This document shows, one piece after another, positions 8,964 through 64,000 of a stretch of 64,000 bases of DNA. The notes beneath the pieces are model-generated. The model made no database searches, was not told the origin of the DNA, and was given only the letters and a program-made list of their open reading frames with translations. Numbering within the stretch: the stretch's first letter is position 1; each line of letters opens with the position of its first letter. A program made the position numbers and the translations under genes. Source of the stretch: Herbidospora sakaeratensis (GTDB lineage Bacteria; Actinomycetota; Actinomycetes; Streptosporangiales; Streptosporangiaceae); assembly GCF_001570525.1 (NCBI RefSeq), contig NZ_BBXC01000007.1, positions 1,186,679-1,250,678 of the forward strand, read 5' to 3'.

Positions 8964-9022
8964 GGCGTCCAGCGAAGCCGACCTGCCCATGGCGGCACAT
9001 TGGTGCTGCGGCGAGAAGCGAT

Positions 9023-9040
9023 GGTAGTCCTGGCACTACC
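9023..9040. promoter_or_regulatory. inverted repeat between ABC exporter and histidine kinase, possible response-regulator site
   Basis: GGTAGT and ACTACC form perfect six-base arms around a six-base spacer in the 111-base gap between the divergent ATPase and kinase genes. NarL-type response regulators bind short symmetric sites like this, and the cognate regulator gene lies downstream of the kinase. The assignment is inference from position. Confidence 0.4.
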
Positions 9041-9074
9041 GTGCGGGCCTGGATCGATCGGCTACGGTCGGGGC

Positions 9075-35616: not shown

Positions 35617-36495
35617 TCAGCGCGACCGGATTTCGTCCCGTAAGGCCCGCGCCACCTGAGCCATCAGCGCCTCCGCGCCGGGTTGCCGGACCGCCGCGAC
35701 GCGCGACTCCGTCAGCGCCGCCACGGCGTAGACCTGGCCGCCGGCGTGCTCCACCACGCCGACCTCGTGGCGCAGGTTGAGCATCGTGCCGGTCTTGGAC
35801 GACCAGGTCGTCAGGTCGGAGGTGAAGTCGGGGGCCAGGCGCTGGCGCAGCACGTTGTCGCCCATCAGCTCGCGCACCCGCCCGGCCACCCAGGGGTCGA
35901 TCGCGGACGGCCGCCACAACGCCGCCAGCAGGTCGACGAAGGCGCGGGCCGACCCCGACGAGCCCCGCGTCACGTCGAGCTGGGGGACCGGGTGGCCGCG
36001 TCCGGCGGTGGCGCCCTCGATGGCCAGCACGTGGGCCAGATGACCGCCGAGCGCCTGCACCGGGCTGTCGGTCAGGTGGCGCAGCGTGTGGCGGATCGAG
36101 ATGCCGCGCAACCCGTGGTCGTCCAGGAACGCGGCCACCATCGCGGGCGGGGTCAGCTCGAACAGGGCGTCGCCGGCGGTGTTGTCGCTGATCGTCATGG
36201 TCAGCAGGAGCAGGTCGTCGACGGCGATCTCGGCCGGGTGGCGGAACCTGCTGGCGCCGGTCGGGCCGGGGGAGTGGCGGGCGCCGGGGCCGACCGTCAG
36301 GCGCATGGCCCCGTCGAGCTCGCCGCGCCTGACCCGGTAGAGGGTGGCCGCCGCCAGCGGGATCTTGACCAGCGACGCGGTGGTGTACTCGTCGTCGGGG
36401 TCGATGCCGATCTCCTCGCCGGTACGCAGGTCGCGGACCAGGAAGGAGCCCCGCAGGCCGCCCTCCTCCAGCATCCGGCGCAGGTCACGGATCAC
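35617..36495 (-). CDS. serine-beta-lactamase-like cytoplasmic protein, BlaB-type
   Basis: 292 residues from GTG 36495, which overlaps the LysR stop by four bases. Class A-type motifs are S41-L-V-K44, S103-D-N105 and K234-T-G236. The omega-loop Glu-x-x-Leu-Asn that deacylates penicillins is absent (the region reads TLRHLTDSPVQALGG). No signal peptide is present. A cytoplasmic beta-lactamase-fold protein encoded after a LysR gene and divergent from a true beta-lactamase matches BlaB of Streptomyces cacaoi. There, BlaA and BlaB are both needed for beta-lactamase induction. Here it may sense the inducer rather than hydrolyse it. Confidence 0.75.
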   Translation of the reverse strand: MIRDLRRMLEEGGLRGSFLVRDLRTGEEIGIDPDDEYTTASLVKIPLAAATLYRVRRGELDGAMRLTVGPGARHSPGPTGASRFRHPAEIAVDDLLLLTMTISDNTAGDALFELTPPAMVAAFLDDHGLRGISIRHTLRHLTDSPVQALGGHLAHVLAIEGATAGRGHPVPQLDVTRGSSGSARAFVDLLAALWRPSAIDPWVAGRVRELMGDNVLRQRLAPDFTSDLTTWSSKTGTMLNLRHEVGVVEHAGGQVYAVAALTESRVAAVRQPGAEALMAQVARALRDEIRSR

Positions 36496-40683: not shown

Positions 40684-42918
40684 CTACCCGGGTGGTCCGG
40701 CGGCGAGGTGGTCCTGCAGGTCGGCGTGCCGGAACTGGTAGAACGGGCCGACCGCGCGCAACAGCCCGAGCCGGTGCGCGTCGTCCAGGAACGGCATCAG
40801 CGCGCGGGGCAGGCGCCCCGACCAGGCCAGCCGGCAGGTGGCGGCGGCATACGCCGGCCAGGCGTGATGATTCCCGCCCACCAGCCCGCCCACCAGCCCG
40901 AGGGAGAACGCGGGCACGAGCCCCAGCACGAGCCCGGCGACGAGTGCGGTCACCGGCCCGTCCCTGAGTCCCGCCGCGGCCCCCATCCCCCCGAACGTGA
41001 TCCCGACGCCGAGGACCACCGCGTCGATGCGCACCAGGTTGAGGGCACGGTCTGCCTGCCAGCTGCTCATCGGCGCTCTTGCCCGGTCTGCCGCGGCCGG
41101 TGTCTCCACCCATCCCATGAACCCGGCCACGAGCACGAACACGACCACTGCGGCCGCACCCACCACGAGTGCGGCCAGAAGCCCGAACACGCCACCGGCC
41201 GGGAGCGCGGCCTCGAATCCGAAATCGAGTCCGGCCCGGATGCCGACGATGATCCCGACCCCGCCGCCGACCACGATCCCCGCCGCGATCCCGGCCGAGA
41301 CCGCGCCCGCGAGCCGGCGGGCGAGCAGAGACCGCCGGCCGTGCAGGCGGAGGTTGGCGAACCCCGGCTCCTCCAGGGGCCATGACCCTGACAGCAGCCC
41401 GACCGCCAGCCCGCCGACGAGCCCGACGGTGATCGCGATCACGATCGTGATCTCGAACAGGGGGTCGTACACGACCACGAGCCCGGCCGCGACCACGGAC
41501 GCGACCACGACGGTGACCGCGCCGGCGATCGCGAGCCTGCTCACGGCGGTGAAGGCACGGGTCCTCCGGGCCAGGTCCCACCAGGCGAAGTCGCGGGTGG
41601 GCGTGCCGTTCAGGGGGTGGGCCATGGTGCGGGCCAGGTAGGTCAGCCAACGACGGGCCTGGTGGGGGTCGTGGCGACGGTGGGGCAGGAAGGGGTCTGC
41701 CGGGTCCGCGCCGGGCGTGCGCGTGGCGATGAGGGCGGGGATGAGCCGGTCGAGCAGATGACCCTTCAACCGTGCGGTGTCGGGGAACCGCCCGGGCTCC
41801 GTCAGAGGCGCAGGGTCGGCGCGGTCGTCGATGTAGACCACCCGAAGTAGCCACAGGCCCAGCGCCGTACCGGCGATCGTGGCCAGGACACGGCCGGCGT
41901 CGTGCCCGGCGGGCGTCGCGCGCAGGACGGCGAGGACCTCCTCCCACCCGGCCGCCGGGCGCGGCGGCAGGCATCGCTCCAGGTAGGCGGCGGCCGTTTT
42001 CGGGGTCAGCGCCCGCGGCTCGATGACCATGGCCGAGGTGAGGACGTCTCCCGCCCCCTCCACGGCCCGGCTGAACTCGGCGGTCCTGCTGGTCACGATC
42101 AGCTGGTCGGTATCGGCGAGAGACTGGTTCAGCGCCACGATGACGGCCTGCCGCGCGGGCGGGGAAAGCTCGTCCAGGCCGTCGAGCACGGGCAGGACGT
42201 GCCCCCGCGTGGCGAGGGCCGCCGGCATCTCGGCGGGCAGGTCGGCGGCCCGCAGGGCGGGATAGTCGTGTTCGAGCCGTACGGCGAGCCATTGGTGCAG
42301 ACGGGGGTGGTTCCGCGTGTCCCAGTCGGCCACCGACATCAACACCGGCACCGGTTCGCCGGGATGGGCGCCCCGGGTGGCGAGCAGTTCACGAATGAGC
42401 TGGATGGCCAGAGTGGTCTTGCCGGTGCCGGGGTCGCCGAGGATGACCAGGCGACGACGGCGCAGCCGGCGGAACGTCCTGGCCGCGGCGACGATGTCGT
42501 CGCTGTGCACGCTCAGTCGCCGCAGACCGGGGGTGAGGTTGGCCGGATGGTCCATGACGCCGGAGGTACGGGTCAGCCGCCATCGCACCGGGATGGGGGA
42601 GGGATCGTCCACCGATCGCATCCTCGCCTCGGTGTTCCACTGATGCTCGATCAGCCCGGCCAGCACGTCCTTGGCGTGGTCCACGTGCGCGGAGGTCACC
42701 GCCGGACGCACCGTCGAGCGCCGCCACCACAACCAGAGCGGAACCAGCAGCGTCGGAACCACGAGGATGACACCGGCCAGCTGGGCCACGTTCGCCGCGG
42801 TCTGCAACCCGTCGGTCCCGCGCAGCGCGGATCCGGTCAGCGCCAGCAGCCCGGTCACGCCCGCCAGGCCGGCCCACCAGCCCAGTGTGTGCCGCCACGA
42901 ACCGCTCCTCCTCGCCAT
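40684..42918 (-). CDS. membrane-associated NACHT-family NTPase
   Basis: 744 residues from ATG 42918; a TTG at 42978 is a weaker alternative. Two N-terminal helices (about 12-30 and 47-65) lead to a NACHT module. It has P-loop GDPGTGKTT (161-169), Walker B VLPVLDGLDEL (241-251) and sensor-like VTSRTAEF. From about 450 there are six to eight helices in glycine/valine-rich blocks (LAIAGAVTVVVASVVAAGLVVV, ITVGLVGGLAVGLLSG). The C-terminus is VGPFYQFRHADLQDHLA. Actinobacteria have many such proteins; some NACHT proteins in bacteria defend against phage. No effector nuclease or protease is present here, so function is open. Confidence 0.85.
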   Translation of the reverse strand: MARRSGSWRHTLGWWAGLAGVTGLLALTGSALRGTDGLQTAANVAQLAGVILVVPTLLVPLWLWWRRSTVRPAVTSAHVDHAKDVLAGLIEHQWNTEARMRSVDDPSPIPVRWRLTRTSGVMDHPANLTPGLRRLSVHSDDIVAAARTFRRLRRRRLVILGDPGTGKTTLAIQLIRELLATRGAHPGEPVPVLMSVADWDTRNHPRLHQWLAVRLEHDYPALRAADLPAEMPAALATRGHVLPVLDGLDELSPPARQAVIVALNQSLADTDQLIVTSRTAEFSRAVEGAGDVLTSAMVIEPRALTPKTAAAYLERCLPPRPAAGWEEVLAVLRATPAGHDAGRVLATIAGTALGLWLLRVVYIDDRADPAPLTEPGRFPDTARLKGHLLDRLIPALIATRTPGADPADPFLPHRRHDPHQARRWLTYLARTMAHPLNGTPTRDFAWWDLARRTRAFTAVSRLAIAGAVTVVVASVVAAGLVVVYDPLFEITIVIAITVGLVGGLAVGLLSGSWPLEEPGFANLRLHGRRSLLARRLAGAVSAGIAAGIVVGGGVGIIVGIRAGLDFGFEAALPAGGVFGLLAALVVGAAAVVVFVLVAGFMGWVETPAAADRARAPMSSWQADRALNLVRIDAVVLGVGITFGGMGAAAGLRDGPVTALVAGLVLGLVPAFSLGLVGGLVGGNHHAWPAYAAATCRLAWSGRLPRALMPFLDDAHRLGLLRAVGPFYQFRHADLQDHLAAGPPG

Positions 42919-43017
42919 GACCGCAATCGTGATCCTCTCGATCCCGATGTGGCCCGCGCCGGAAGGAACTGTGACCAACCCGCGTCCATGGGCCGGCCTG
43001 CTCGTCGCCGGGCGTTC

Positions 43018-43443: not shown

Positions 43444-44037
43444 ATGAGAATCGTGGTTTTCGGAGCGGGCGGCCGGGCGGGCCGCCGGATCGTGACCGAG
43501 GCGGGCGCCCGCGGGCACGAGGTGACCGGCGTCTCCCACCGCCCGGGCGACTGGACGGTCGGCGACGTCACCGACCCTGAATCGGTGGCCTCCCTGGTCA
43601 CCGGGCACGACGCGGTCGTGATGGCGGCCAGCCGGTACGAACCGGGCTTCTTCCCCCGTTCGGCTCTCGCCTTGGCCGCCGGGATGGCCGAGGCGGGGGT
43701 GACCCGGCTGGTGGCGGTCGGCATCGGCACGACGCTGGAGACGCCGGAGGGCGTGCCGCTGTACGAGACGCCCGGCTTCCCCGAGGACGCGCGGGCCTTC
43801 ACGCTGGGGCACGTCGAGGAGCTCGGCGTGTTGCGCGAGTCGGCGCTCGACTGGGTCGTGCTCGCGCCGCCGCCCGTCTTCCTCAACGACGACCCGGCGA
43901 CCGGCCGGCACCGGATCGGCGCACGCCTGGCGCCGGGCGATGAGGCGTTCGGCTACGCCGACCTGGCGGCGGCGGTGGTGGACGAGGTGGAGCGGCCCAC
44001 CTGCCACCGGGAGCTGGTGGCCGTCACGGCCGCCTAG
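43444..44037 (+). CDS. NAD(P)-binding atypical short-chain reductase
   Basis: 197 residues from ATG 43444. The Rossmann start MRIVVFGAGGRAGRRIVTEAGARGHEVTGVSHRPGD has GAGGRAG in place of GATGxxG. DVTDPESVASLVTGHDAVVMAA follows. It belongs to the NAD(P)H-binding (SDR_a5/NmrA-like) group in the KEGG-style putative NADH-flavin reductase class. It ends four bases into the convergent megasynthase gene. Control by the HxlR regulator points to a stress role rather than a part in the megasynthase pathway. Confidence 0.88.
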   Translation: MRIVVFGAGGRAGRRIVTEAGARGHEVTGVSHRPGDWTVGDVTDPESVASLVTGHDAVVMAASRYEPGFFPRSALALAAGMAEAGVTRLVAVGIGTTLETPEGVPLYETPGFPEDARAFTLGHVEELGVLRESALDWVVLAPPPVFLNDDPATGRHRIGARLAPGDEAFGYADLAAAVVDEVERPTCHRELVAVTAA

Positions 44038-47000
44038 ACCCATTCCCCGGCGAGGTGCAGCGGCGCCGCCTCGACCCCGGCGGCGGTCATCGCCCGCAGA
44101 CAGGCCAGGGCCGTGCCGGTGTCGACCAGACCGTGGACGGGTGTCAGACCCGGGATGAGGGATTCCAGGCGGCAGGAGGCGATGGTGCCGGGGAGCCAGG
44201 GCGCGGGCACGTCCACCGTGAGCCGCCGCTTGATGCCCGGCATCGACAGCAGGCCGCCGCCGACGACGGTGACGTCGCGCCGGGCGCGGGCCTTGGCGAC
44301 GTCGAAGCAGTGGGGGAAGGAGTCGTCGACGAGGATCGTGCCGGGTCGTAGCCGGTCGACGTCGATGACGAGGTCGTGGCCGCTGACGGCCGCGACGATC
44401 AGGTCGGCGTCGTAGACCTCGTCCATCGCGCAGATCTCCGCGCCCGGGTGCAGGCCCTCCAGCGGGGCGGCGTCGTCGCGCAACAGCAGCCGCCCCGGCC
44501 GGTCGGCCACGGTCAGCAGCAGACCGAGCGCCGACCGGCCGATGGAGCCGAGCCCGACGAAGGCGACGGTCAGGTCGCGCGACGACCTTCCCGCCAGCGC
44601 CTTCTGGACGGTCAGGACCACCGAGACGGCCGTCGCGGCATGGCCCGTCGTGACGGGCACATCGGTCCGCCGGACCACGTCGAAGCCGTAGCCGGTCAGC
44701 GCCGGGATCATCCCGGCCAGCGACACGGTCCGCGCGCCGAGGGAGGCGGCGTGCTCGACGGCCTCGGCGGTCCGCGCGGCGAGGTCGGGCGTGCGGGCGA
44801 GCTCGTCGGCGAACAGTGGAAGGCAGACGAAGCCCGACCGGCCGAGTGGCGTGTCGAGCTCCTCGGCCAGGCGCGGGCGACCGCCGGGGAACAGGAGGGC
44901 GCGCACGTCGTCCCTGGTCAGGGTGGCGTCTGGGGCGAGCGCCTGCACGTGCTCGAAGGGAGGCAGGTAGCCGACCAGCGCGGCGTCCAGGGTCGCGTCA
45001 CGGGCGCGCGGTGGCGGCTGGCTGCCCTGGGCCGGCAGTTCGGACCGCAAAAGGCGCTCGAAACGGTCCGCGTCCGCCACGGCGGTTCGCAGCACCACTC
45101 GCAGATCCCCCTCCGGCGTGGGTCGCACCGACAGGAAGGTCTGCGCGCCCACGGGGGCGATCTCCCCGTCGAGGTCCCAGGTCAGCCGCAGGTTGCGGCC
45201 CTCCATCGGGCCCAGCGCCGTGAAGTCGAGGTAGGTGAAGAAGAACTGGGCCGCCCTGATGTCCTCGGCGTTCGCCGTGCGGGCGGCCGTCACCTCCTCG
45301 GCCACCGCCCGCAGGTCACCGCCGGCAGGCCGCACCGGCACCGCGTGCGCGTAGGGGCCGAAGACCAGGTGAGCGTCGGGCGGCGCGTCGTCGCGGCCGG
45401 ACACGGCCACGCCGACCATCAGGTCGTCGTGGCCCGTGAACGCGGTCAGCGCCCGGTGGTAGGCGGCCAGGACCGCGACGAACAGGGTCGTGCCCGCCGC
45501 CGCGGCGGCCCGCCGCAGCTCCGCCGCGCCGACCGTGAACGCCGTCGTGCGGGCCGGTCCCGGTGGCACCACCGGCTTCCGGTACGCCTCCCGCCCGCCC
45601 CCCGCCGGCCGCAGCCGGGCCACGTGGTCGCGGAACGTGCTGCGCGGGGGAGGCGGCTCGATCCCGTCGTAGGCCGCGAGCAGTTCACGCCCCAGCAGCG
45701 CGGCGCTGTAGCCGTCGCCGATCAGATGGTGGGCGTGCACGATGAGCACGTGTTCCGACGAGCTCAGGGTGACGAGCCGGAGCCGGAGCAGCGGCCACGC
45801 CCACGGTTCGAACACGCGGGCCCGTTCGGCCGCGATCGACGCGGCGGGGTCGGCGGCCTCCTCGAAGACCACGGGCAGGCGCAGGCTGCCGGGGAGCTCC
45901 TGCTGCCCGTCCCCGGGGAACACCGTGCGCAGCATCCCGTGCCGCGCCACGCAGGCGTCGACCGCGCGCTGGAAGCGTTCCCGGTCGACCCGCCCGTGCA
46001 CGCGCAGGGTCGCCAGCCACGCCTGGCCCGACAGCAGGAACCCGCGCTGCGCGGGCGTCAGCGGGAACGGGCCGTCGGCGGCCGCCGGCACGAACGGGGC
46101 AGGTTCGGCCTCGTCGATCGCCTGAGCCAGCGCGGCGAGCGTGCCGTGCTCGTACACGACCGTCGGGCGCGGCAGGGTGGGGATGCGCTCGGCGAGCCGG
46201 GCGAACACGCGCAGGATCAGGATCGAGTCGCCGCCCAAGGCGAAGAAGTCGTCCTCCCGCGACACGCGCGGCACCTCCAGCAGGGAGCGCCACACCTCGG
46301 CGACCAGTTCCTCGGTCGGGGTCGCGGGCGGCGTGCCGTCGAGGCCGCGCCGGTCGATCTTGCCCGTGGTGGTCTGCGGGAGCGCGGTCACGATCTCGAT
46401 CCGGGCCGGGATCATGTACGCCGGCAGCGTCGCCCCCAGGTGCCGGCGCAGCGCGACGGGATCGGGGTCGCCGCCGGGGCGGGGCTCGACGAAGGCGGTC
46501 AGCCGTTCGCCCGTCAGCACCACGGCGGCCCGCGCCACCTCCGGATGCGTGTGGAAGGCCGCCTCGACCTCCCCCGGCTCCACCCGGTGGCCGCGCACCT
46601 TGACCTGCGCGTCGAGCCGCCCGGCGAAGACCAGGTCGCCGTCGGCGTTCCGCCGCACGCGGTCGCCGCTCCGGTACCACCGCACGCCGTCGCGTTCGAC
46701 GAACGCCGTGCCGGGGTCGTCGAGGTAGCCGGGGGTGAGCCCGGCCCCGGCGATGAGGAGTTCGCCCGAGTCGTCCACCTCGACGAAGACGCCCGCGACA
46801 GGGCGGCCGATCGGGATCGTGGTGACGTCGTCGGCGGGCCGTTCGGCGATGACGTGGCAGGTGGCGTTGATGGTCGACTCGGTCGGGCCGTAGAGGTTGG
46901 CGATCCGGGCGACGGGGCCGTACAGGTCGAACCAGCGGCGCACGTGCTCGGGCGGCAGCGCCTCGCCGCCCACGTGGATCCAGCGCAGCCGGTGCTCGAC

Positions 47001-50000
47001 GGGCCCGAGGTCCAGCAGCCGCGCCCACAGGCTCGGCACCGAACTCCACACCGTGACGTCGCGCAGCCGCCCGGCCAGCAGCGCGGGGTCGCGCACCTCC
47101 TCCCGCGTGAACGTCACCACGGTCGCCCCGGCCAGCAGCGGGGCCAGCAGCTGCCGGACCGAGGCGTCGAAGCAGATCGACGCCGTCTGGGCCAGCCGGT
47201 CGCCCGCGTGGTAGCCGAACGTCGCCAGCGCCCAGTCGAGGTAGTTCTCTACCGACCGCCAGGTGATCGGCACCCCCTTGGGACGGCCCGTCGAACCGGA
47301 GGTGAAGATGACGTAGGCGGTCGCGTCGGGTGAGACGTCCGGGGCGTCATGGCAGCCCTCACCCGACACGTCGGTGACGACCGTCGTCACGCCACAGCGG
47401 GCGAGCTGGTCGCGGCGGCGGGCCTCCGGATGAGAGGCGTCGAGCGGCAGCCACCCCGCGCCCGCGCGCACGATGCCGACCAGGCCGACGACGGTGTCGA
47501 TGCCGGGCTCGGTCATCAGCCCGATCAGGTCACCGGCCCCGCGCAGCCGGTTCGCCAGCGCGGCGGACCTGCGGTCGAGCTCGGCGTAGGTCAGCCGTTC
47601 CGTTCCGGTGTCGACGGCCACGGCGTCGGGGCCGGCGCGGAACCGCGCCCGCAACCGGGCGGCCAGCCCGGGTCTCTCGCTCGTGGACAGTTCGGCCAGG
47701 TGCTCGGCGGCCAGCCGGTCGACGGTCGCCCGGCGGAACAACCGCGACGGGAAGTTCCACGAGAACCGCAGCTCACCGGCCGACTCCCAGCAGAGCAGGC
47801 TGAGCCGGGTCGCGGCCGTCGCGGTCCCGGCGGCGGTCGCGACGGCGTCCACCGGGCAGGCCGGGTCGGTCGCGGCGGGGAACCGGGCGAAGCTGAACGA
47901 CGCAGGGCTCGCCGTGCGCGGACCACCTGAGGCGGGCAGCAGCCGGGCCAGGTCGGCGGAGGTCGGCGTGGCGTGGCGTTCGGCGTCCCGCCACAGGTCC
48001 CGCAGCCGCCCGGCCAGCTCCGGCAGCGACTCGTCGGGGCGCACCTCGGCCACCAGCGGGAGCGTGTCGGCCAGCGGCCCGACCAGGCGGTCGACGCCCG
48101 GAAGGCGGATCTCACGGCGGGCCCTGGCGACGTTCACCGCGACGGCGTCGCTTCCGGTCCAGCGGGCGAGCCGGCGGACATAGGCGGCCAGCAGCAGATG
48201 GAACAACGAGACCCCGTGCGCGGCGGCCGTCGCCCGCAGGGCGGCCGACTGTTCGCGGGTCAGCGCGACCTGAACGGCGTCGAGCGGCGGCCCGTCCGGG
48301 TCGCCGTCGTAGGGAAGGCGCAGGTCGGGGGCGGTGCGCACGACCTCGGTCCAGTACGCCAGATCGCCCGCCCCCGCCGGTTCCGACGCGGCGGCGTAGT
48401 CGGCGAAGGTCGTCGGCAGCGGCGGCAGGACCGGGGCGGCCCCGCGCGACAGGGCCGTGTAGACGGTCCAGAGCTCCTCGCCGAGCACGTTCAGGCTGAA
48501 GCCGTCGGCGGCGAGGTGGCTGACGACGATGACCAGGTGGGTCCCGGTGGGGGTGCGGGCCACGACCGCCCGCAGCGGGCCCTCCCGCGTCAGGTCGAAG
48601 GGCCGGTTGCGCAGGTCGCTTTCGAGGGCGTCGAGATCGCCGGTGTCGTGCACCTCGAAGTGGAGGCCCGCGGACGGTTCGGCCGACTGCATGCCGTCGG
48701 CGTCGATCCGCAACCGCAACATCGGGTGCCGGTCGGCCAGGAACTCCAGCGCCGCCCGCAGGTGCGCGATGTCGAGGGGTCCGGTGATGGTCTGCCGCAC
48801 ATACCCGTATGCCGAAATTTCGGGATAAAGCCACTGTTGGGTCTGGAACGCGACCTGCGTCGGCGTGAGCGGGAACGACCCGCCGCCGTCGAGGTGGGCC
48901 GACAACTCGCGCAGTGTGCGGAACTCGAAGAACAGGGTGACCGGCAGCGGCCTGCCGAGCTCCTTCTCCAGCCGTTTGACCAGGTCGACGGCGGTGAGCG
49001 AGTCGAGCCCGAGACTGAGGAACGACTCGTCGTCGCCGAGGTCGTCCCGCCTGAGCGCACCCCCCACCAGCCGCCTGACCACCGCCCGCACGTCACCGGA
49101 GGACGGCACGAAAGCCGGTTCCGGTACGTCCGCCAGATCGGCCACCACCACCTGCGCGCCCCCCGACCCGATCGCGGCGCGCAAGGCGGCCAGGGCCGCC
49201 GACGGATCGAGCGCCCCCCGGGTCACCCCGGCGCGGGCGGCCAGGCCGACCTCCGCGAAGGCGGCGAAGTTCACCGCGATCCACGGCCCCCGCCCGGCCC
49301 GGCACAACGCGTCGAGGTAGGCGTTGGCCGCGGCATAGCCACCGATGCCCCCGGCCAGACCGGGCAGCACCGACGACACCGACGAGAACGCCACGCACAC
49401 GACCGGCGTGAGCCGATGTCGGCGCAGCCCCTCGGCGAGCAGGTAGGCCCCCCGGGTCTTGGCCGCCATGCCCGCCACCAGTTCCCCGGCCGACCCGCCC
49501 CGCAGCGCGCCGGGCCGCACCTCCCCGGCGGCATGGAACAGCCCGTCGAGCCGGGCCAGCGGGGCGAGCAACGCCTCGACGTCACCCTCCCGCGACACGT
49601 CAGCGCTGAGGTAGTCGACGGTCGCGCCCCGGGAACGCAGATCCGCGAGCAGCCCGGCGGGCGGCCGGGCGGACCGCCCGGCCAGCACGATCGTGGGCCG
49701 CCCCCGATCGGCGAGGTCCCGTGCGAGCGCGGCCCCGACCCCGCCCGCCCCACCGGTGATCAGGTAGACCCCATCAGGAGGCAGCTCGCGCCCGGCCGGG
49801 CCGGCCGCCTCCGGCTCCGACCCCGTGCCACCACGCCAGGCGACCGGGCCGACTGCCGCCGGCTCCGACCGTGCGCCACCGCGCCAGGCGATCAGATCAG
49901 AACCCGAGGCCGGGACGATCGCCTCCGGCTCTCGTTCCGACCGCCTGCCCCCGCGCCACCTGACCAGCCCGGAACCCCGGGCGGAGACCTCGGTCTCGAC

Positions 50001-53000
50001 CGCCGCCACCCGCTGCTCCACGGGCTCCCGGGAGGCCAGGTCGGCGACCCTGACCTCGGCTCCCGTCTCCTGGGCCAGGGCCGCCGCCAGACCTTCGAGC
50101 ACCGCCTGCTCGGGCCGGTCGGCGTGCACGTCCTGGGTGACGACGAGCACGCGCGTCGCGTCGAGCGCGAGCAGGGCCGACGTCAGTTCGCGGTGCACGG
50201 CGTCGAGCGCGTCGGCCGACTCGGCTCGCCGGGGCGACCCGGCGACGAGGATCGTGACGTCGCCGCCGGGCAGCACGGTCACGCCGGGGGTGGTGAGCGC
50301 GTCTGCCAGTCCGTCGACGGTCACGCGTGGAGCGTCGATCGGCCGCTCGCGCCAGACCAGGCGGTGCAGCAGTCGCGACGACGGCCAGTGGCGGCGGCGC
50401 TCGAACGGATACGTCGGCAGGGCCACCCGGGTCCGGCCCCGGTCCATGGTGGTGCGGTCGATCGGGAGGCCGCGTTGCCAGAGTGCGCCCACGGTCTCCA
50501 GCAGCGCCCGTGCGCCGCCCGCGTGCCCGGCAGCCAGCGTCGCGACCGGTGTGGCCGCCGCGTCCGACACGGCGCGGACCGCGCCGCCGAGCGCGGGGGA
50601 CGGGCCGAGTTCGAGGAAGGTGTCGTAGCCCTCGGCGATCAGCCGGGCGATCGTGTCGGCGAAGCGGACCGGGCGGGCGGCGTGGGAGACCAGGTAGGCC
50701 GGGTCGAATGACGGGTTCCACTCGGCGGTGACCGTGCTGAGCAGGGCGATCTCCGGCGGGCCGACGGTGAGCCGGGCCGCCGCCTCGGCGAGCGGGTCGA
50801 GTGCCGGGTCCATCAGCGGGGAGTGGAAGGCCCGCGTGACGTCGATGCGGCGGCCGCCCAGCGCCGCCACCGCGTCCACCGGACCGGCGACCACGACGCG
50901 GCCGGGCGCGTTCAGAGCCGCCACCGTCACCTCCGGCGGCAGCTCCGTGTCGTCGGGGACGACCGCCATCGCGCCGGGCGGGCAGAGGTCGTGCATCAGG
51001 CGGCCGCGTTCGGCCGCGAACGTGACGGCGTCGGCAAGGCTGAGGCGTCCCGACACGCAGGCGGCGGCGAGTTCGCCCACGCTGTGGCCGGCGACGGCGT
51101 CCGGGACCACCCCCCAGGCGCGCAGCTGGCGGGCGAGCGCGATTCCGTACATGACCAGGAGGGGCTGCACCACGTCGGTGCGGGCGATCTCGGCGGCGGG
51201 ATCGGCGCACCAGTCCTTGAGGGTGCGGCCGCCGACGGGGCCGAGCAGGTCGGACGCCTCGTCGACGACCTGCCGGAACACCGGCGCGTGCGCGTAGAGG
51301 TCCGCGCCGGAGCCCTGCGCGCCCTGGCCCGGCAGCAGCAGGACCAGGCGGGGGCGCGGGCCGGCCACCCGGGCCTCGGCGGTTGACAGACGCCGGGCCA
51401 GGTCGCCGTCGGCGACGACCGCGAGGCGGTGGGGGCGGTCGTCCCGGGCTTGGGCGACGGACGCGCAGACGTCGCCCTCGTCGTGGCCGGGGAGGACGGC
51501 GGCCAGGTCGTCGGCGGCCCGGCGCAGCGCGGTGGCGCTCGCCGCCGACAGGGTGAGCAGGGTGAGCCCTTCATGAGGGGTGCGGTCGACCACGCGGGCG
51601 GGGGGCTCGGACAGGATGGCGTGCGCGTTCGTGCCGCCGAAGCCGAAGGCGTTGACCCCGGCGGTGCGCGGTTCCGGCCAATCCACGGGCTCGGCCGGGA
51701 TCGTGAAGCCGTCGAGGCCCTCGGCGGGGGGAGCGGCGTGCAGCGACGGCGGCACGGTCCGGTGGCCCAGGGCCAGCACGACCTTGAGCAGGCTCGGCAT
51801 CGCGGCGGCGTTGAGCAGGTGGCCCACGTTGGTCTTGACCGAGCCCAGCAGCCGGGAGCCGGTGGGGAAGGCGTGCCGCAGCGAGCGCAGCTCGATCGGG
51901 TCGCCGACCGGGGTGCCCGTCCCGTGGGCCTCGACGTAGGTGACCTCGGCCGGGTCGACGCCCGCCTCCGCGTGGGCCCGGGTGATCACCTCGCGCTGGG
52001 TGAGCGGGTTGGGCGCGAGCAGGCTCAGCGACCGGCCGTCGTTGTTGACGGCGGTGCCCCTGACGACGGCCAGGACGGGGTCGCCGGACCGTTCGGCGTC
52101 GTCGAGGCGGGCCAGCACCAGCGCCGCGCCGCCCTCGCCCGGCACGAACCCGTCGGCCGCCGCGCCGAACGCGCGGCACCGCCCCGACGGGGAGAGCGCC
52201 CGCGTCTTCCCGAGCGCCCGGTAGCCGGCGGGGGTGAGGGTGAGGTTCACGCCCGCCACCACCGCGAGGTCGCATTCGCCCTGCTGGAGGCTGCGGCGGG
52301 CCAGGTGGAGGGCGACCAGCGCCGACGAGCAGGCGGTGTCGACGGCCAGCGCCGGGCCGGTCAGGTCGAGCGTGTGGGCGACCCGGGCGGCCAGCAGGTT
52401 GGGCAGGTTCCCGGTCAGCGCCTCGGCCGGCAAGCCCGTCGCGCCGTGGGCGGCCTCCAGGATCTCCCGGTAGCCGCTCTCCCCGGCGGCGGCGAACACG
52501 CCGACCCGGCGGCCGTGGCGGCGCGGGCCCGCGTAGCCGGCCCGTTCGAGGGCCTCGTGGGCGAGTTCCAGCAGCAGCCGGGCCTGGGGGTCGGTCGCGG
52601 CGGCCTCCTCGTCGGACAGGCCGAAGAAGCGGGCGTCGAACAGCGCGGGGTCGTCGAGGAAGCCGCCGTGGCCCGGGTGGTCGAAGCGGGTGATCGGGGT
52701 GATGGCGTCGTGGCCGCCGACGAGCCGTTCCCAGAACTGCCCGGGGTCGTCGGCACCGGGGAACCGGCAGGCCAGGCCGGTGATCGCGACCGGCTGACCG
52801 GCCGCCTGCCGGGGCTCGGTGGACATGAGGGCGGGCGGGGTCAGCAGGTGCGCCGCGAGGGCGGCGACGGTGTCGTGGTCGCGGACGTCGGAGGGCCGCA
52901 ACGTCACCCCGAACCGGTCTTCGACGGCCGCCAGGACCTGCATCGCCGTGAGCGACGACCCGCCCAGCGACGTGAACCGGTCGTGCGGCCCGACGTCGGC

Positions 53001-54581
53001 GACGCCGAGCACGTCGGCCCAGATCGCGGTGACGGCCGCCTCGACGTCGGCCCGCGACCGGGGGGCCGGGCTGAACTCCCCGGCCTCGAACCGGGCCCGG
53101 AGCACCGAACGGCGCAGCTTCCCGCTGGTCGTCCGGGCGAACGCGGTCGACGGCACCGCCACCACGGCGACGTCGTCGTGCCCGCACGCCGCCGCGACCC
53201 GCCGCCGCACCTCGCCGACGACCCCGGCCGGCGCGGGCGCCCGGACGAACACCACGACCCGCTCGCCCTCGGGCCCCGAGGAGCCGACGACCGCCACCGG
53301 GCCCGCCGCCACGCCCGCCGCGACCTCCTCCAGGTCGGCGGCGTGGAAGGTGGCCCCGTTGACGAACACGACGTCCTTGGCCCGGCCGGTCACGCACAAC
53401 CGGCCCTCGTGCAGGAAGCCCAGGTCGCCGGTGTCGAGCCAGTCGCCGAAGCGGGGGCCGCCGTGGTAGCCGCGGGCGACCTGCGGCCCCCGGACCTGGA
53501 TCAGCCCGACCCGGTCGTCTCCGGCGACGCGCACCTGGCAGCCGGGCACCGGCGCGCCGACGTCCAGGAGCTCGACCGCGTGCGGGCCGGGCGTGGTGAA
53601 CTCCACCCGGCCCTCGGCGAGCGCCCGCCGGTCGAGCACGAGCGGTTCGGCCGTGGTTCCCGGCGGCGGCACGGTGACCGCGAGGGTCGCCTCGGCCAGG
53701 CCGTAGACCGGCTGCGGCACGTGGGGCGGCAGCCCGGTCCTGGCCAGGAAGGCCCGCCAGACGCGCGGTGAGATCGGCTCCGCGCCGACCAGCATCAGCC
53801 GCACGCTCGACAGGTCGAGCCGGGCGATCAGCTCGGCGGGCACCCGCCGCTCGACCAGCGCCAGCGCGAAGTTCGCCGCCGTCAGCACGGTCGCCCGATG
53901 GCGCGCGGCCGTCTCCAGCCACAGGGCCGGACGTTTGGCGAAGGCCAGCGGCCCCAGCTTGACCTGCTTGATCCGGGCCGCCAGCGGCGCGAGATGGGTG
54001 CCGATCAGGCCCATGTCGTGGAAGTAGGGCATCCAGCTGACCGAGACGTCGCCGGGGGTGATCGCGGCGGCGGCCCGGATCTGCGCCAGGTTCGCCTCGA
54101 CGGCGGCGTGGGTGAGCTCGACGCCCTTCGGGTCTCCGGTGCTGCCCGAGGAGAACTGGAGGAAGGCCACGTCGTGCGGTGACCGTACCGGCAGATCGAG
54201 AGCCTTCTCGCCGCGCAGCAGCGCGGCGGGGGAGAGCACCCGCGCCTCCGGGACCGGCGGCTCGTCGGCCACCATCGGCGGGCGGCCGAGGAGCTCCCAC
54301 ACCGGCCGCACCCGGCGCGGGTCGGGGGCCAGCGGGACCGGCACGAGCCCGGCCGCGACCAGCCCCCAGAAGAGCGGCTGGAACTCCTCGCTCCGGTCGG
54401 CGATGAGCGGGATCGGGGTGCCCGGCGCGAGGCCCTCCCGCAGCAGCGCGCCCGCCGCCCGCAGGGCCTCGTCGCGTAGTTCCGCGTGCGTGACGACCCG
54501 TTCGGAGCCGTCGCCGCGCACGTGGACGACGACCTGGCCGGGCGCGTCGTCCGCCGCCCCCAGCAGCACGTCAAGCAGCAT
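44034..54581 (-). CDS. hybrid PKS-NRPS: FAAL-ACP-KS-AT-KR-ACP-C-A-PCP-C-reductase
   Basis: 3515 residues from ATG 54581. FAAL (1-500) has LQFSSGSTGDPKGVELTH and SWMPYFHDMGLIG. ACP1 has GGSS (S542). KS has C751, H886 and H921. AT has GHSVGE (S1167) and AFHS (1251-1254, malonyl-type). KR has TGGAGGVG, K1708, SS near 1734 and Y1749/N1753, so it looks active. ACP2 has S1861. C1 has SHLAADG instead of HHxxxDG. The A domain (2315-2745) gives a by-eye code of about D-A-R-S-I-V-L-I-N-K with no match I know. PCP has LGGDS (S2786). C2 has intact HHLIGDG (2951-2957). The C-terminal 320 residues look like an acyl-ACP reductase (AAR): LAGMIPALTGYGFD, TTGHAATAVS, VGLGSIGRSALG, LVDDSFP and C3470. No TE, DH or ER is present. 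Confidence 0.92.
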   Translation of the reverse strand: MLLDVLLGAADDAPGQVVVHVRGDGSERVVTHAELRDEALRAAGALLREGLAPGTPIPLIADRSEEFQPLFWGLVAAGLVPVPLAPDPRRVRPVWELLGRPPMVADEPPVPEARVLSPAALLRGEKALDLPVRSPHDVAFLQFSSGSTGDPKGVELTHAAVEANLAQIRAAAAITPGDVSVSWMPYFHDMGLIGTHLAPLAARIKQVKLGPLAFAKRPALWLETAARHRATVLTAANFALALVERRVPAELIARLDLSSVRLMLVGAEPISPRVWRAFLARTGLPPHVPQPVYGLAEATLAVTVPPPGTTAEPLVLDRRALAEGRVEFTTPGPHAVELLDVGAPVPGCQVRVAGDDRVGLIQVRGPQVARGYHGGPRFGDWLDTGDLGFLHEGRLCVTGRAKDVVFVNGATFHAADLEEVAAGVAAGPVAVVGSSGPEGERVVVFVRAPAPAGVVGEVRRRVAAACGHDDVAVVAVPSTAFARTTSGKLRRSVLRARFEAGEFSPAPRSRADVEAAVTAIWADVLGVADVGPHDRFTSLGGSSLTAMQVLAAVEDRFGVTLRPSDVRDHDTVAALAAHLLTPPALMSTEPRQAAGQPVAITGLACRFPGADDPGQFWERLVGGHDAITPITRFDHPGHGGFLDDPALFDARFFGLSDEEAAATDPQARLLLELAHEALERAGYAGPRRHGRRVGVFAAAGESGYREILEAAHGATGLPAEALTGNLPNLLAARVAHTLDLTGPALAVDTACSSALVALHLARRSLQQGECDLAVVAGVNLTLTPAGYRALGKTRALSPSGRCRAFGAAADGFVPGEGGAALVLARLDDAERSGDPVLAVVRGTAVNNDGRSLSLLAPNPLTQREVITRAHAEAGVDPAEVTYVEAHGTGTPVGDPIELRSLRHAFPTGSRLLGSVKTNVGHLLNAAAMPSLLKVVLALGHRTVPPSLHAAPPAEGLDGFTIPAEPVDWPEPRTAGVNAFGFGGTNAHAILSEPPARVVDRTPHEGLTLLTLSAASATALRRAADDLAAVLPGHDEGDVCASVAQARDDRPHRLAVVADGDLARRLSTAEARVAGPRPRLVLLLPGQGAQGSGADLYAHAPVFRQVVDEASDLLGPVGGRTLKDWCADPAAEIARTDVVQPLLVMYGIALARQLRAWGVVPDAVAGHSVGELAAACVSGRLSLADAVTFAAERGRLMHDLCPPGAMAVVPDDTELPPEVTVAALNAPGRVVVAGPVDAVAALGGRRIDVTRAFHSPLMDPALDPLAEAAARLTVGPPEIALLSTVTAEWNPSFDPAYLVSHAARPVRFADTIARLIAEGYDTFLELGPSPALGGAVRAVSDAAATPVATLAAGHAGGARALLETVGALWQRGLPIDRTTMDRGRTRVALPTYPFERRRHWPSSRLLHRLVWRERPIDAPRVTVDGLADALTTPGVTVLPGGDVTILVAGSPRRAESADALDAVHRELTSALLALDATRVLVVTQDVHADRPEQAVLEGLAAALAQETGAEVRVADLASREPVEQRVAAVETEVSARGSGLVRWRGGRRSEREPEAIVPASGSDLIAWRGGARSEPAAVGPVAWRGGTGSEPEAAGPAGRELPPDGVYLITGGAGGVGAALARDLADRGRPTIVLAGRSARPPAGLLADLRSRGATVDYLSADVSREGDVEALLAPLARLDGLFHAAGEVRPGALRGGSAGELVAGMAAKTRGAYLLAEGLRRHRLTPVVCVAFSSVSSVLPGLAGGIGGYAAANAYLDALCRAGRGPWIAVNFAAFAEVGLAARAGVTRGALDPSAALAALRAAIGSGGAQVVVADLADVPEPAFVPSSGDVRAVVRRLVGGALRRDDLGDDESFLSLGLDSLTAVDLVKRLEKELGRPLPVTLFFEFRTLRELSAHLDGGGSFPLTPTQVAFQTQQWLYPEISAYGYVRQTITGPLDIAHLRAALEFLADRHPMLRLRIDADGMQSAEPSAGLHFEVHDTGDLDALESDLRNRPFDLTREGPLRAVVARTPTGTHLVIVVSHLAADGFSLNVLGEELWTVYTALSRGAAPVLPPLPTTFADYAAASEPAGAGDLAYWTEVVRTAPDLRLPYDGDPDGPPLDAVQVALTREQSAALRATAAAHGVSLFHLLLAAYVRRLARWTGSDAVAVNVARARREIRLPGVDRLVGPLADTLPLVAEVRPDESLPELAGRLRDLWRDAERHATPTSADLARLLPASGGPRTASPASFSFARFPAATDPACPVDAVATAAGTATAATRLSLLCWESAGELRFSWNFPSRLFRRATVDRLAAEHLAELSTSERPGLAARLRARFRAGPDAVAVDTGTERLTYAELDRRSAALANRLRGAGDLIGLMTEPGIDTVVGLVGIVRAGAGWLPLDASHPEARRRDQLARCGVTTVVTDVSGEGCHDAPDVSPDATAYVIFTSGSTGRPKGVPITWRSVENYLDWALATFGYHAGDRLAQTASICFDASVRQLLAPLLAGATVVTFTREEVRDPALLAGRLRDVTVWSSVPSLWARLLDLGPVEHRLRWIHVGGEALPPEHVRRWFDLYGPVARIANLYGPTESTINATCHVIAERPADDVTTIPIGRPVAGVFVEVDDSGELLIAGAGLTPGYLDDPGTAFVERDGVRWYRSGDRVRRNADGDLVFAGRLDAQVKVRGHRVEPGEVEAAFHTHPEVARAAVVLTGERLTAFVEPRPGGDPDPVALRRHLGATLPAYMIPARIEIVTALPQTTTGKIDRRGLDGTPPATPTEELVAEVWRSLLEVPRVSREDDFFALGGDSILILRVFARLAERIPTLPRPTVVYEHGTLAALAQAIDEAEPAPFVPAAADGPFPLTPAQRGFLLSGQAWLATLRVHGRVDRERFQRAVDACVARHGMLRTVFPGDGQQELPGSLRLPVVFEEAADPAASIAAERARVFEPWAWPLLRLRLVTLSSSEHVLIVHAHHLIGDGYSAALLGRELLAAYDGIEPPPPRSTFRDHVARLRPAGGGREAYRKPVVPPGPARTTAFTVGAAELRRAAAAAGTTLFVAVLAAYHRALTAFTGHDDLMVGVAVSGRDDAPPDAHLVFGPYAHAVPVRPAGGDLRAVAEEVTAARTANAEDIRAAQFFFTYLDFTALGPMEGRNLRLTWDLDGEIAPVGAQTFLSVRPTPEGDLRVVLRTAVADADRFERLLRSELPAQGSQPPPRARDATLDAALVGYLPPFEHVQALAPDATLTRDDVRALLFPGGRPRLAEELDTPLGRSGFVCLPLFADELARTPDLAARTAEAVEHAASLGARTVSLAGMIPALTGYGFDVVRRTDVPVTTGHAATAVSVVLTVQKALAGRSSRDLTVAFVGLGSIGRSALGLLLTVADRPGRLLLRDDAAPLEGLHPGAEICAMDEVYDADLIVAAVSGHDLVIDVDRLRPGTILVDDSFPHCFDVAKARARRDVTVVGGGLLSMPGIKRRLTVDVPAPWLPGTIASCRLESLIPGLTPVHGLVDTGTALACLRAMTAAGVEAAPLHLAGEWV
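49806..49970 (-). repeat. three-fold linker repeat inside the megasynthase, before the KR
   Basis: The segment encodes residues about 1538-1592 with three copies of a W-R-G-G-x-x-S-E-P/R unit (VRWRGGRRSERE, IAWRGGARSEPA, VAWRGGTGSEPEA). At the DNA level the copies share GGCTCCGACC and CGCGCCAGGCGA-like blocks at about 50-65 base spacing. The repeat lies in the flexible linker between the structural KR half and the NADPH-binding KR half and probably arose by slippage or unequal exchange. Confidence 0.7.
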
Positions 54582-54636
54582 CGTTCGCCCCCGGCTCTCC
54601 GCAGATTCCGGGACATGATGACAGAGATCACTCTGA

Positions 54637-54673
54637 TTGCGTGTTGCGCAAATAGTGCGTGGCACGCAAATAT
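54637..54673. promoter_or_regulatory. paired palindromes between the megasynthase and the TIM-barrel gene
   Basis: TTGCG-N5-CGCAA (54637-54651) and the perfect palindrome TGCGTGGCACGCA (54656-54668) are followed or overlapped by CGCAAATA in direct repeat (54647-54654 and 54665-54672). They lie in the 98-base gap between divergent starts at 54581 and 54680. TTGCGC on the minus strand could be the -35 of the megasynthase promoter. The layout suggests binding of a dimeric regulator that controls one or both genes. Confidence 0.6.
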
Positions 54674-56270: not shown

Positions 56271-56390
56271 GGTAGATCGTTTACGTCCGCGCAACGGAGG
56301 TTAATGCCGGGACAATAGTTGAAAGTTTAACTCGTGCTGTTTCGTGAGCTTTGTGTGGCTTGCGGGACGTAAATGCACGAGAGGAATGCC

Positions 56391-58730
56391 ATGAGGCTTT
56401 CTAGGGCCACCGCGATCCTGGCGGTGGTGACGGGGCTTCTCGCCCTGCCCCTTCCCGCCGCCGCCGACACCTGGTCGGTCGTCGAGGTCGACGGCGGATA
56501 CCGGGTGACGTTGACGCTGGACGAACCCCTGCCCGTCCGGAACGCCGCCCCCGAGCTGGCGGTCGACGGATTATCGCTCGGGTACGCCACCGAGAGCGCC
56601 GACGGTCACACCCTGACCCTGCTCACCGACGATCCGCGCGCCGCCGGGGCGCAGCGGGTCGAGGTCGCCTGGAACGGCGTCGCCGAGTCGGCGGCGCAGG
56701 TCAGGTCGCGGGCGGTCTACACCCCGCCGGCCGACCCGCAACCGTCGACCATCCCGGCCGACCCGGCCACGCCGGGACCGTTCCCGGTCACCGAGACCGA
56801 CTACGACCTGGGCGCGCAGGCCATCGCCCTGGACGGCCTCGGCGGGCGGCTCGGCGAACTGAAGGCCCGGGTCTACGCCCCGACGGGGGCCGCCGGACGG
56901 CGTCCGCTGGTGCTGTTCCTGCACGGGCGGCACTCCGCCTGCTACGACGCCGTCACCCGGCGGACCAGCAACACCGCCTGGCCGTGCCCCGCGCCGCAGA
57001 TCCCCATCGACAGCTACACCGGCTACAAGGGCCCGGCCGACGCGCTGGCCAGCCACGGGTACATCGTGGTGTCGGTCAGCGCCAACGCGGTCAACGCCTT
57101 CGACGCCAACTTCTCCGAGGACCGGGGCGCGCTGGCGCGCGGCGAGGTCGTCATGCGGCACCTCGACCTGATCAACGAGGCCGAGAAGGGCAAGGGCGAC
57201 CCCCAGCTGGTCTCCCTGTTCCAGGGCCGCGTCGACCTCGACAACGTCGGCCTGATGGGCCACTCGCGCGGCGGCGAGGGCGTCGCGAAGGCGGTGCTGA
57301 TGAACGCCGGCCGGGCCAAGCCCTACGGCATCCGCGCCGTGCTGCCGCTCGCGCCGACCGACTTCGCGCGGGCCACGCTGCCCGGCATCCCGACGCTGAC
57401 GATCCTGCCGTACTGCGACGGCGACGTGTCCAACCAGCAGGGCCAGCACTTCTACGACGACTCCCTGTACGCCGTCCCCGGCGACACCGCCTTCCGGTCG
57501 GTCCAGATGGTCATGGGCACCGACCACAACTTCTTCAACACCGAGTGGACGCCCGGCGTCGCCACCGCCCCCGCCTCCGACGACTGGTCGAACAACAACG
57601 ACCCCGTCTGCGGCAACCGCGCGCCCTCCCGCCTGTCGGCGAGTGAGCAGTACGCCGTCGGCACCGCCCTGATGGCCGGGTTCTTCCGGCTCGTCCAGGG
57701 CCAGGAGACGGCGCTGCTGCCGCTGTTCGACGGCAGCAACAAGACGGTCGCCTCCACCGGCCGCGCCGTCGTCTACTCGGTCGCCCAGGCCCCGGCCTCC
57801 AGCCGGATCGACGTCGACACCTTCGCGGGCTCGACCATCTCCACGGTCTCCGGCGCCGCTACCGGCGTGATCTGCGCGAGCATGCTCGACCGCTCCCCGC
57901 AGAGCGGCCTGCCGTCGTGCGCGACGAAGCTGACCACCTCGCAGGCGCCGTCGTGGACGCCGGCGACGTACCTGCCGAACGCCGCGGCGACCTCGCTGAT
58001 GCGGTTCGCCTGGACCGACACGACCGGGAAGCTGACCGTCACGCTGCCCGAGCGGAACGTCTCCAAGGCCGAGTACCTGACCTTCCGGGTGGCCCGCGAC
58101 GAGAACGTCCCGGCCGCCCAGCCGCTCGACCTCGCGCTCACCCTGGTCGACGGCCGCGACCGCAGCGTCACGGTGCCGGTCTCCTCGCTGAGCACCGCCC
58201 TGGAGGCGCTGCCCGGCCTCGCCTCGCCGCTGCCGAAGACGTGGCTGCGGGCGGTCCGTCTGCCGCTGTCGGGGCTCAGCGGCATCGACAAGAAGGACGT
58301 CAAGGAGGTGTCGCTGACCGGCGTCTCGCCGACCGGCGGCGTCTACCTGGCCGACCTGTCGTTCACCCGCTACCGCGTCGGCGAGGAGACCGTCGCCGCG
58401 CTGCCGCAGGTGTCGGTCGGCGACGTGACCGTGGCCGAGGGGAACGGGCCGGGCGTGGCGACGATCCCGGTGACCCTGTCGCGGGTCTCCGACCGGCCGG
58501 TGACCGTGTCGGTGCAGGCCCTGCAGACCGGCACCGCCCCGGTGATCACCTCGCTGGCGGCGTCGGTCACCATCCCGGCCGGGTCGACCGGCGGGACGTT
58601 CACGGTGCCGGTGGCCGGCAACACGGTCAAGGCGACGGTCGCGCAGTCGTACCAGGTCGTGGCCGGCGTCTCGGCCGGCGCGACCGTCGGCGACGGTTTC
58701 GCCCGCCTGGTCGTCACCGACGACGACTGA
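56391..58730 (+). CDS. secreted alpha/beta hydrolase with C-terminal beta-sandwich (Calx-beta-like) domain
   Basis: 779 residues from ATG 56391, with AGAGGA six bases upstream. A signal peptide (LSRATAILAVVTGLLALPLPAAADTWS, about 3-26) is present. A beta-rich N-terminal module precedes the alpha/beta hydrolase core from about 150. The core has LVLFLHGRHSACYD (oxyanion), nucleophile elbow GLMGHSRGGEG, acid region ILPYCDGDVSN and VMGTDHNFFN with the catalytic His. Cysteine pairs suggest extracellular disulfides. The C-terminal ~90 residues (VSVGDVTVAEGNGPGVATIPVTLSRVSDRPVTVSV) resemble a Calx-beta repeat. It probably attacks an extracellular ester or polymer. A strong terminator follows. Confidence 0.88.
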   Translation: MRLSRATAILAVVTGLLALPLPAAADTWSVVEVDGGYRVTLTLDEPLPVRNAAPELAVDGLSLGYATESADGHTLTLLTDDPRAAGAQRVEVAWNGVAESAAQVRSRAVYTPPADPQPSTIPADPATPGPFPVTETDYDLGAQAIALDGLGGRLGELKARVYAPTGAAGRRPLVLFLHGRHSACYDAVTRRTSNTAWPCPAPQIPIDSYTGYKGPADALASHGYIVVSVSANAVNAFDANFSEDRGALARGEVVMRHLDLINEAEKGKGDPQLVSLFQGRVDLDNVGLMGHSRGGEGVAKAVLMNAGRAKPYGIRAVLPLAPTDFARATLPGIPTLTILPYCDGDVSNQQGQHFYDDSLYAVPGDTAFRSVQMVMGTDHNFFNTEWTPGVATAPASDDWSNNNDPVCGNRAPSRLSASEQYAVGTALMAGFFRLVQGQETALLPLFDGSNKTVASTGRAVVYSVAQAPASSRIDVDTFAGSTISTVSGAATGVICASMLDRSPQSGLPSCATKLTTSQAPSWTPATYLPNAAATSLMRFAWTDTTGKLTVTLPERNVSKAEYLTFRVARDENVPAAQPLDLALTLVDGRDRSVTVPVSSLSTALEALPGLASPLPKTWLRAVRLPLSGLSGIDKKDVKEVSLTGVSPTGGVYLADLSFTRYRVGEETVAALPQVSVGDVTVAEGNGPGVATIPVTLSRVSDRPVTVSVQALQTGTAPVITSLAASVTIPAGSTGGTFTVPVAGNTVKATVAQSYQVVAGVSAGATVGDGFARLVVTDDD

Positions 58731-63038: not shown

Positions 63039-64000
63039 CTATCTTCGCAAAGACGTTCCGTCGGCGACGTGCAGGAGGGCGTCGGCCCCGTCGAGGGTGT
63101 CGGCGGCGAGCGGGAAGTAGCCCATCGGCGGCGTGGTGTCGGTGCGGGTGAGGCCCGACGGCATCGTGGTGGTCAGGCCCCACGTGGCGAACCGGCCGCC
63201 CAGGTCGTCCTCGTAGGTGCCCGCCGGCGGGTCGCCCAGGCCGAGGGCCGCGCTGCGGCCCAGGGACGACGCGATGAAGGCGTAGCGGTCCCCCCACAGG
63301 GACGCCACGATCTCCCCGGCGCCGTGCCAGGTCATCGACGTGCCGCGCATCTCCCAGGTGCTCGGGGTCTTCTTCAGGTGGAGGTTGTGCGAGAAGACGA
63401 GGGTGCGGCCCCGGCGGGTCTCGGCGTCGCGGATGGCGAAGAGGTTCTCGGCCATGATGGCGTCGCGGGTGGCCAGCAGCAGGCGGATGCGCGCGCCCTG
63501 GTCGAGCGGGATCGCCGCCTGCCGGTGGTAGCGGAGCAGGGCGATGCCCGCCGTCAGATGGGTCTTGGCCCGCGACCACGCCGCGCGCGGGCTCTCCGGG
63601 GCCCTCTCGTGGAGGCGGGCCAGCAGGTCGTCGGCGATGACCCGCGCCTTCTCGGCCTCCGGGGTCGCGCCGGGCGACCGGGCCGGGTCCATGATGGCGT
63701 CGGTGTGGTGCCAGCGTTCGTCGTCGCCCAGCAGCCCGGCCAGGTCGAGGTCGAGGCCCAGGTGGTCGCGGGCGTGTTCGAGGTAGGCGCGCGGGCTGGG
63801 GGCGGTGGTGTTCTCGGTGGGGGCGTCGAAGCCGTGGAAGGTCAGCCGGTCCTCCGGCGGGCGCGTGGCGTTGTGCTCGCGCAGCCAGGCGACCAGGGCG
63901 CGGTTGGGCGCGAAGCCGCCCCAGCCGTGGGAGAAGCCGTCGCGCATGACGTCGTCGAGCGAGCCGGGCCCGCCCTGGACGTAGTCGTCGACGGCCAGCG
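63039..64000 (-). CDS. erythromycin esterase-family protein, 5' end outside the window
   Basis: At least 320 residues; the frame runs off the right edge, where it reads DDYVQGGPGSLDDVMRDGF upstream of the first internal Met. Family features are the RALVAWLREHN and LTFHGFDAPTE segments, the helical insert with AYLEHARDHLGL and the late motif VFSHNLHLKK. The catalytic His/Glu region near the true N-terminus is not visible. Members hydrolyse macrolide lactones or act as succinoglycan-biosynthesis-like esterases; most chromosomal actinobacterial copies are not proven macrolide resistance genes. Confidence 0.85.
   Translation of the reverse strand, partial: LAVDDYVQGGPGSLDDVMRDGFSHGWGGFAPNRALVAWLREHNATRPPEDRLTFHGFDAPTENTTAPSPRAYLEHARDHLGLDLDLAGLLGDDERWHHTDAIMDPARSPGATPEAEKARVIADDLLARLHERAPESPRAAWSRAKTHLTAGIALLRYHRQAAIPLDQGARIRLLLATRDAIMAENLFAIRDAETRRGRTLVFSHNLHLKKTPSTWEMRGTSMTWHGAGEIVASLWGDRYAFIASSLGRSAALGLGDPPAGTYEDDLGGRFATWGLTTTMPSGLTRTDTTPPMGYFPLAADTLDGADALLHVADGTSLRR

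Follow-up and report, generated by a model that had tools for sequence, protein, structure and literature searches.

A TAD-type domain with an invariant cysteine ends an actinobacterial megasynthase and may release its product as a primary amide

The DNA analysed here is a 64,000-nucleotide stretch of the actinobacterium Herbidospora sakaeratensis (contig NZ_BBXC01000007.1, positions 1,186,679 to 1,250,678; hereafter the window). Its minus strand, to which all coordinates of the gene below refer, carries a megasynthase that joins polyketide synthase (PKS) and nonribosomal peptide synthetase (NRPS) domains. The open reading frame spans 44034-54665 and encodes 3543 aa from a GTG start at 54665. 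A likely ATG lies 28 codons into the frame; it was chosen to match the numbering of the original prediction, a note made from the letters of the window alone, and the point at which the orthologous frame L135_7 begins. From this ATG the gene covers 44034..54581 and encodes 3515 aa. Pfam searches give the order adenylation (fatty acyl-AMP ligase-like, FAAL), carrier (ACP), ketosynthase (KS), acyltransferase (AT), ketoreductase (KR), carrier, condensation (C), adenylation (A), carrier (T) and condensation, with the weaker stretches ordered by eye. A Rossmann domain of about 315 aa (44037..44987) closes the protein. We assign this domain to the TAD type known from the carmabin pathway, and the full architecture is thus FAAL-ACP-KS-AT-KR-ACP-C-A-T-C-TAD.

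The terminal domain shows the fold of acyl-ACP reductase (AAR) in its predicted structure. Structure comparison places it nearest to the TAD of the carmabin pathway (PDB 9e4s, 9e4u, 9e4x, 9e50, 9e56; released February 2025). The original prediction had described an AAR-like Rossmann domain in place of the usual thioester reductase (R) domain or thioesterase, and both parts hold. A standard R domain is rejected because the terminal domain matches no Pfam family even at E ≤ 10, and hence not PF07993, the family of NRPS thioester reductase domains. A thioesterase is rejected as none is found among the 15 Pfam families matching the megasynthase at E ≤ 0.01. The prediction had also named a best match to a family lacking acyl chemistry, such as alanine dehydrogenase, as grounds for abandoning it. 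No such match appears: the unrelated dehydrogenases among the listed families, to which the comparison is confined, reach about half the Z score and mostly about half the aligned length, and a plain dehydrogenase of the alanine or shikimate type is rejected accordingly. In a comparison by sequence profile, AAR (1.3e-3) leads a malic enzyme (2.8e-3) only narrowly. The AAR model TIGR04058, with a curated cut-off of 449.7 bits, does not match the window domain at E ≤ 1 and finds nothing above its cut-off in the window's own genome. Against the same model, two orthologues reach 18.7 and 14.8 bits, and orthologues match the FolD, SbnB and glutamate dehydrogenase models weakly, in a Rossmann-wide manner.

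The residues of the putative active site identify the domain more closely. Cys3470 (44172..44174), numbered from the ATG, is residue 309 of the translated fragment window:44034-45098, which supplies the numbering of all other residues given here. The alignments match it to the nucleophile Cys294 of AAR, as the prediction had proposed and as counting along the alignment now confirms, and to Cys2238 of the carmabin TAD. In the carmabin chain, only the aligned cysteine among four tried fits the number 2238, provided that the numbering is continuous. The title of PDB entry 9e56 describes Cys2238 in a disulfide with dephosphocoenzyme A. The cysteine is invariant in all 80 actinobacterial family rows, and in 82/82 TAD-type and 20/20 AAR-type rows of the wider alignment. 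The predicted nucleotide-binding loop is also present as GLGSIG (44538..44555). Around these shared elements, the two types differ. All 82 TAD-type rows have His153 (in TTGH, 44640..44642), Asp208 at the end of the second Rossmann strand (44475..44477), Asp259, Ser260, His263 and Arg273. Cys264 is present in 81 of them, inside the DDSFPHCF motif (44304..44327) and within an insertion. All 20 AAR-type rows, PigE included, instead have Asn at 153, Arg right after position 208 and a gap at Cys264, with Asp at 259 in one row. Conservation of DDSFPH is biased since this motif formed part of a search pattern, while H153, D208 and C309 are free of that bias. The AAR likeness originally claimed thus stands for the fold and the cysteine; the active-site and cofactor residues (His153, Asp208, DDS..HC) are of the TAD type. 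An acidic residue in this strand-end position usually indicates NAD(H), and an Arg there NADP(H). Asp208 and GLGSIG are consistent with NAD(H) binding by the terminal domain. The entry titles of the carmabin TAD list NAD and NADH, and homology to that domain together with these titles would place C3470 close to the cofactor.

The tree agrees with the residues. The 28 TAD-type rows stand apart from the 20 AAR-type rows with support of 100/99 and in 100% of 200 bootstrap trees. It was built with 26 of the 80 actinobacterial rows, and the tree program flags long branches meeting. The carmabin domain and a Pantoea protein pair inside the TAD group (100/100), and the window domain groups with the carmabin TAD, away from AAR and PigE. 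We conclude that it belongs to the TAD type, here in an actinobacterial form; within the acyl-ACP-reductase superfamily, this type is a branch that sits at the ends of NRPSs. Likeness to the carmabin TAD extends over the fold of nearly the full domain, at 31-32% identity, and includes the cysteine, His153, Asp208 and DDS.PHC. The carmabin domain (residues 1914-2287) also lies late in a long protein, deposited as an amino acid adenylation domain protein. Unlike carmabin, the window synthase belongs to an actinomycete, holds FAAL, PKS and NRPS parts in a single gene and has a condensation domain between the carrier and the TAD. Cyanobacterial AAR (PDB 6jzq, 6jzu, 6jzy, 6jzz; TIGR04058) is more distant at 20-21% identity, with Asn for His153 and an Arg-type cofactor residue in place of Asp208, and is a stand-alone enzyme acting on fatty acyl-ACP.

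The domains upstream suggest what the terminal domain receives. The FAAL domain (53073..54545, PF00501 stretch 41-401) matches fatty acyl-AMP ligase models, but below their cut-offs, and is followed by carrier protein 1 (52845..53036, PF00550 stretch 544-607) and the ketosynthase (51735..52796, PF00109 and PF02801, residues 624-977). The acyltransferase (50532..51338, PF00698, residues 1110-1378) carries an xAFH motif, which we take to be of the malonyl type. This motif reads RAFHS in the window and RAFHS or HAFHS in 56 of the 62 family members having the GHSxGE motif. The ketoreductase (49293..49772, PF08659, residues 1632-1791) precedes carrier protein 2, one of three PF00550 stretches, with approximate limits set by eye (48912..49103). 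The NRPS part begins with condensation domain C1 (47706..48872, PF00668 with best stretch 1932-2320), which has SHLAADG in the window. An amino-acid adenylation domain follows (46341..47663; TIGR01733 above its cut-off and matches to PDB adenylation domains), and then carrier protein 3 (T3) with GGDSI (46116..46298, PF00550). The adenylation core FDASVRQLLAPL has the same letters in 70/80 loci, which suggests a single conserved amino acid substrate across the family. Among the ten other loci, six are frames cut short, L095 and L105 are one residue off, and L049 and L103 make up the rest. The second condensation domain, C2 (45105..46085), has HHLIGDG, and its matches to condensation domains of the PDB start at 8.4e-19. 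It separates T3 from the terminal domain, with neither an A nor a T domain after it, and its HHxxxDG motif is intact in all 78 proteins long enough to examine.

The terminal domain occurs in all seven Herbidospora genomes searched, with a single match in the window's own genome. Eight of 200 genomes in a sample of the family have it, seven of them Herbidospora, as do 11/394 in a sample of the class, one with a stand-alone relative of 402 aa. In a phylum sample, 33/296 genomes have any match, only four with a long synthase frame and 29 with separate shorter frames. These separate-frame relatives (L005-L030) are mostly about 360-390 aa long, many in genomes of 1.3-2.8 Mb, and L005, which was scanned, fits the PigE model better (1.8e-62) than the AAR model (1.5e-37). 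Named genomes were searched with the patterns [VL]VDDSFPH and [LM]DAAL[VI]GYL, which reach fairly close relatives only; this gave 174 matches, of which 144 were confirmed and 80 kept. The kept loci come from Herbidospora, Nonomuraea, Microtetraspora, Streptomyces (66 of the 80 by title), Micromonospora, Couchioplanes, Actinoplanes, Kineococcus, Ornithinimicrobium and one Nocardioidaceae bin. The frame continues through the domain to a stop codon in 79/80 loci and is broken in L099.

Orthologues from different genera align over more than 3000 residues of the synthase at about 50-66% identity. No partner gene common across genera was found in the flanks, which were covered downstream for 77 loci and upstream for seven regions (five genomes, one plasmid and the window). 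The commonest cluster of downstream frames occurs in just 14 of the 77 loci. Upstream, cross-genus links besides the megasynthase are genes that look transporter-like by eye, in a few pairs, and a multi-gene cluster is rejected on these grounds. The pathway seems to be held in one gene, because the long cross-genus alignments come without any shared neighbour. Two Herbidospora regions have several neighbours in common, as expected of close relatives. One neighbour of the synthase (window 56373-58730) encodes a protein of 785 aa whose sole match, PETase-like, is sub-threshold; another Herbidospora genome likewise has this gene and the adjoining TetR gene next to the synthase. The window further encodes a NACHT-domain protein (PF05729) close to the synthase (40684-42978), a beta-lactamase2-family protein (35617-36495) and an erythromycin-esterase-family protein (63039-63947). 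No product name turned up in literature searches, which were mostly aimed at other questions.

Relatives outside megasynthases also occur. A protein of the Pantoea stewartii plasmid pCN101 (L032) falls in the TAD group, yet it is a separate protein. It and a second stand-alone relative, from a Streptomyces plasmid (L033), lie beside NRPS/PKS or ACP/KS genes. The pCN101 cluster (L120, 7138-34714) comprises NRPS/PKS genes and the gene of the stand-alone TAD protein, along with genes for a MupA-type luciferase-like monooxygenase, a FAAL-like protein and a penicillin acylase. The Streptomyces plasmid protein (L033, 9815-12217), which lies near an ACP and a ketosynthase gene, carries His, Asp and DDS residues like those of the TADs, yet the tree puts it outside their group. 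L150 (about 6146-9734) resembles it by eye.

We suggest that the FAAL domain would load a fatty acid, that one KS-AT-KR round would give a 3-hydroxyacyl chain, and that C1-A-T3 would attach one amino acid. The T3-bound chain would then move to Cys3470 beside NAD(H) to form an acyl-Cys enzyme. Offloading through such an intermediate with NAD(H) is likely and well supported. The original prediction went from a Cys-bound acyl intermediate to an aldehyde and knew of no such release in PKS-NRPS proteins. The carmabin TAD already provides an example of a Cys/NAD domain attached to an NRPS. As for the product, release as a primary amide appears more likely by analogy, with the aldehyde as the main rival. 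In the account of hectoramide B given in PMC10949194, HcaD has a domain after its peptidyl carrier protein (PCP) that is close to one in VatR of the vatiamide pathway, is believed to release by terminal amidation and is possibly related to one of carmabin A biosynthesis. Like the window domain, the terminal amidation (AMT) domains of HcaD and VatR are C-terminal and replace a thioesterase (PMC10949194). Going by the descriptions, they and the carmabin TAD probably form one family. Aldehyde release thus does not follow from the fold, because these cyanobacterial pathways, whose terminal domains are probable family members, are described as ending in primary amides. Ammonia might attack the acyl-Cys directly. 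Alternatively, a redox-neutral shuttle could reduce the chain to the aldehyde level, add ammonia and reoxidise the hemiaminal with NAD+. We lean modestly towards the reading as a whole, in which the TAD-type domain offloads the chain through acyl-Cys, most probably as a primary amide.

Several points weigh against amide release. We infer the expansion of TAD to "terminal amidation domain", and PMC10949194 describes terminal amidation as unstudied in both mechanism and enzymology. The AMT domains follow directly after a PCP, whereas C2 with an intact motif intervenes in the window; direct placement is the described arrangement and is not shown to be defining. Glu312, present in 80/80 actinobacterial rows, equals the glutamate of AAR and is Ser in the carmabin and Pantoea domains, so the actinobacterial domains are not simply carmabin-like. 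No shared neighbour able to supply ammonia was seen in the flanks, the part of the genomes that was searched, and free ammonia could serve as the nitrogen source.

The shared fold, the cysteine and Glu312 also fit a reductase in the manner of AAR, PigE or TamH. The acyl group would pass to C3470, NADH or NADPH would donate hydride, and an N-(3-hydroxyacyl) amino aldehyde would leave, perhaps to be cyclised or trapped. AAR-type domains of secondary metabolism are described as giving aldehydes in PigE (PMC8341465) and in TamH (PMC9594044). An NAD-type site is compatible with this outcome because the TamH reductase domain is termed NADH-dependent (PMC9594044). PigE and TamH share the superfamily and the catalytic cysteine, TamH by the paper's description, but both are fused to a transaminase outside any megasynthase, and PigE has AAR-type residues. 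Sequence, tree and diagnostic residues side with the carmabin TAD, and the unmatched TIGR04058 model and the narrow lead of the AAR profile over malic enzyme also weigh against an AAR-like reductase; we regard the aldehyde as possible but rather unlikely. Condensation domains acting on free amines exist, such as VibH, and C2 keeps its motif although no carrier follows it. C2 could then be the true release catalyst, transferring the T3 chain onto an unbound amine or alcohol, with a modifying or proofreading part left to the TAD-type domain, such as clearing stalled chains or processing another intermediate. The strict conservation of a cysteine and the nucleotide site at the protein's end argue instead for catalysis on the thioester, which makes this role of C2 improbable. 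A diverged R domain or thioesterase, or a dehydrogenase without acyl chemistry, finds nothing in its favour beyond weak Rossmann-wide matches and is barely credible. A more specific version of the preferred amide release, which we hold only tentatively and consider doubtful, is that this widespread one-gene actinobacterial line produces a lipo-amino-acid and uses the Cys/NAD(H) domain in the redox-neutral hydride shuttle with C2 cooperating, for example by delivering or gating the nitrogen nucleophile. We know of no described counterpart to such release by C2 and a Cys/NAD(H) domain.

The kind of release domain is already known, though little described, and the window domain is a variant of it. 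The newer aspect looks to be the setting, with one gene, no cross-genus neighbour, occurrence in Herbidospora and many streptomycetes and a conserved C2 before the TAD. Annotation based on Pfam would read these synthases as having no release domain, as no Pfam model covers it. The residues described here tell TAD and AAR apart, and the carmabin TAD is now tied to a large actinobacterial family, of which a single genome collection yielded 144 confirmed stretches. As a one-gene system in culturable bacteria, this family would offer a place to study how NRPSs form terminal amides.
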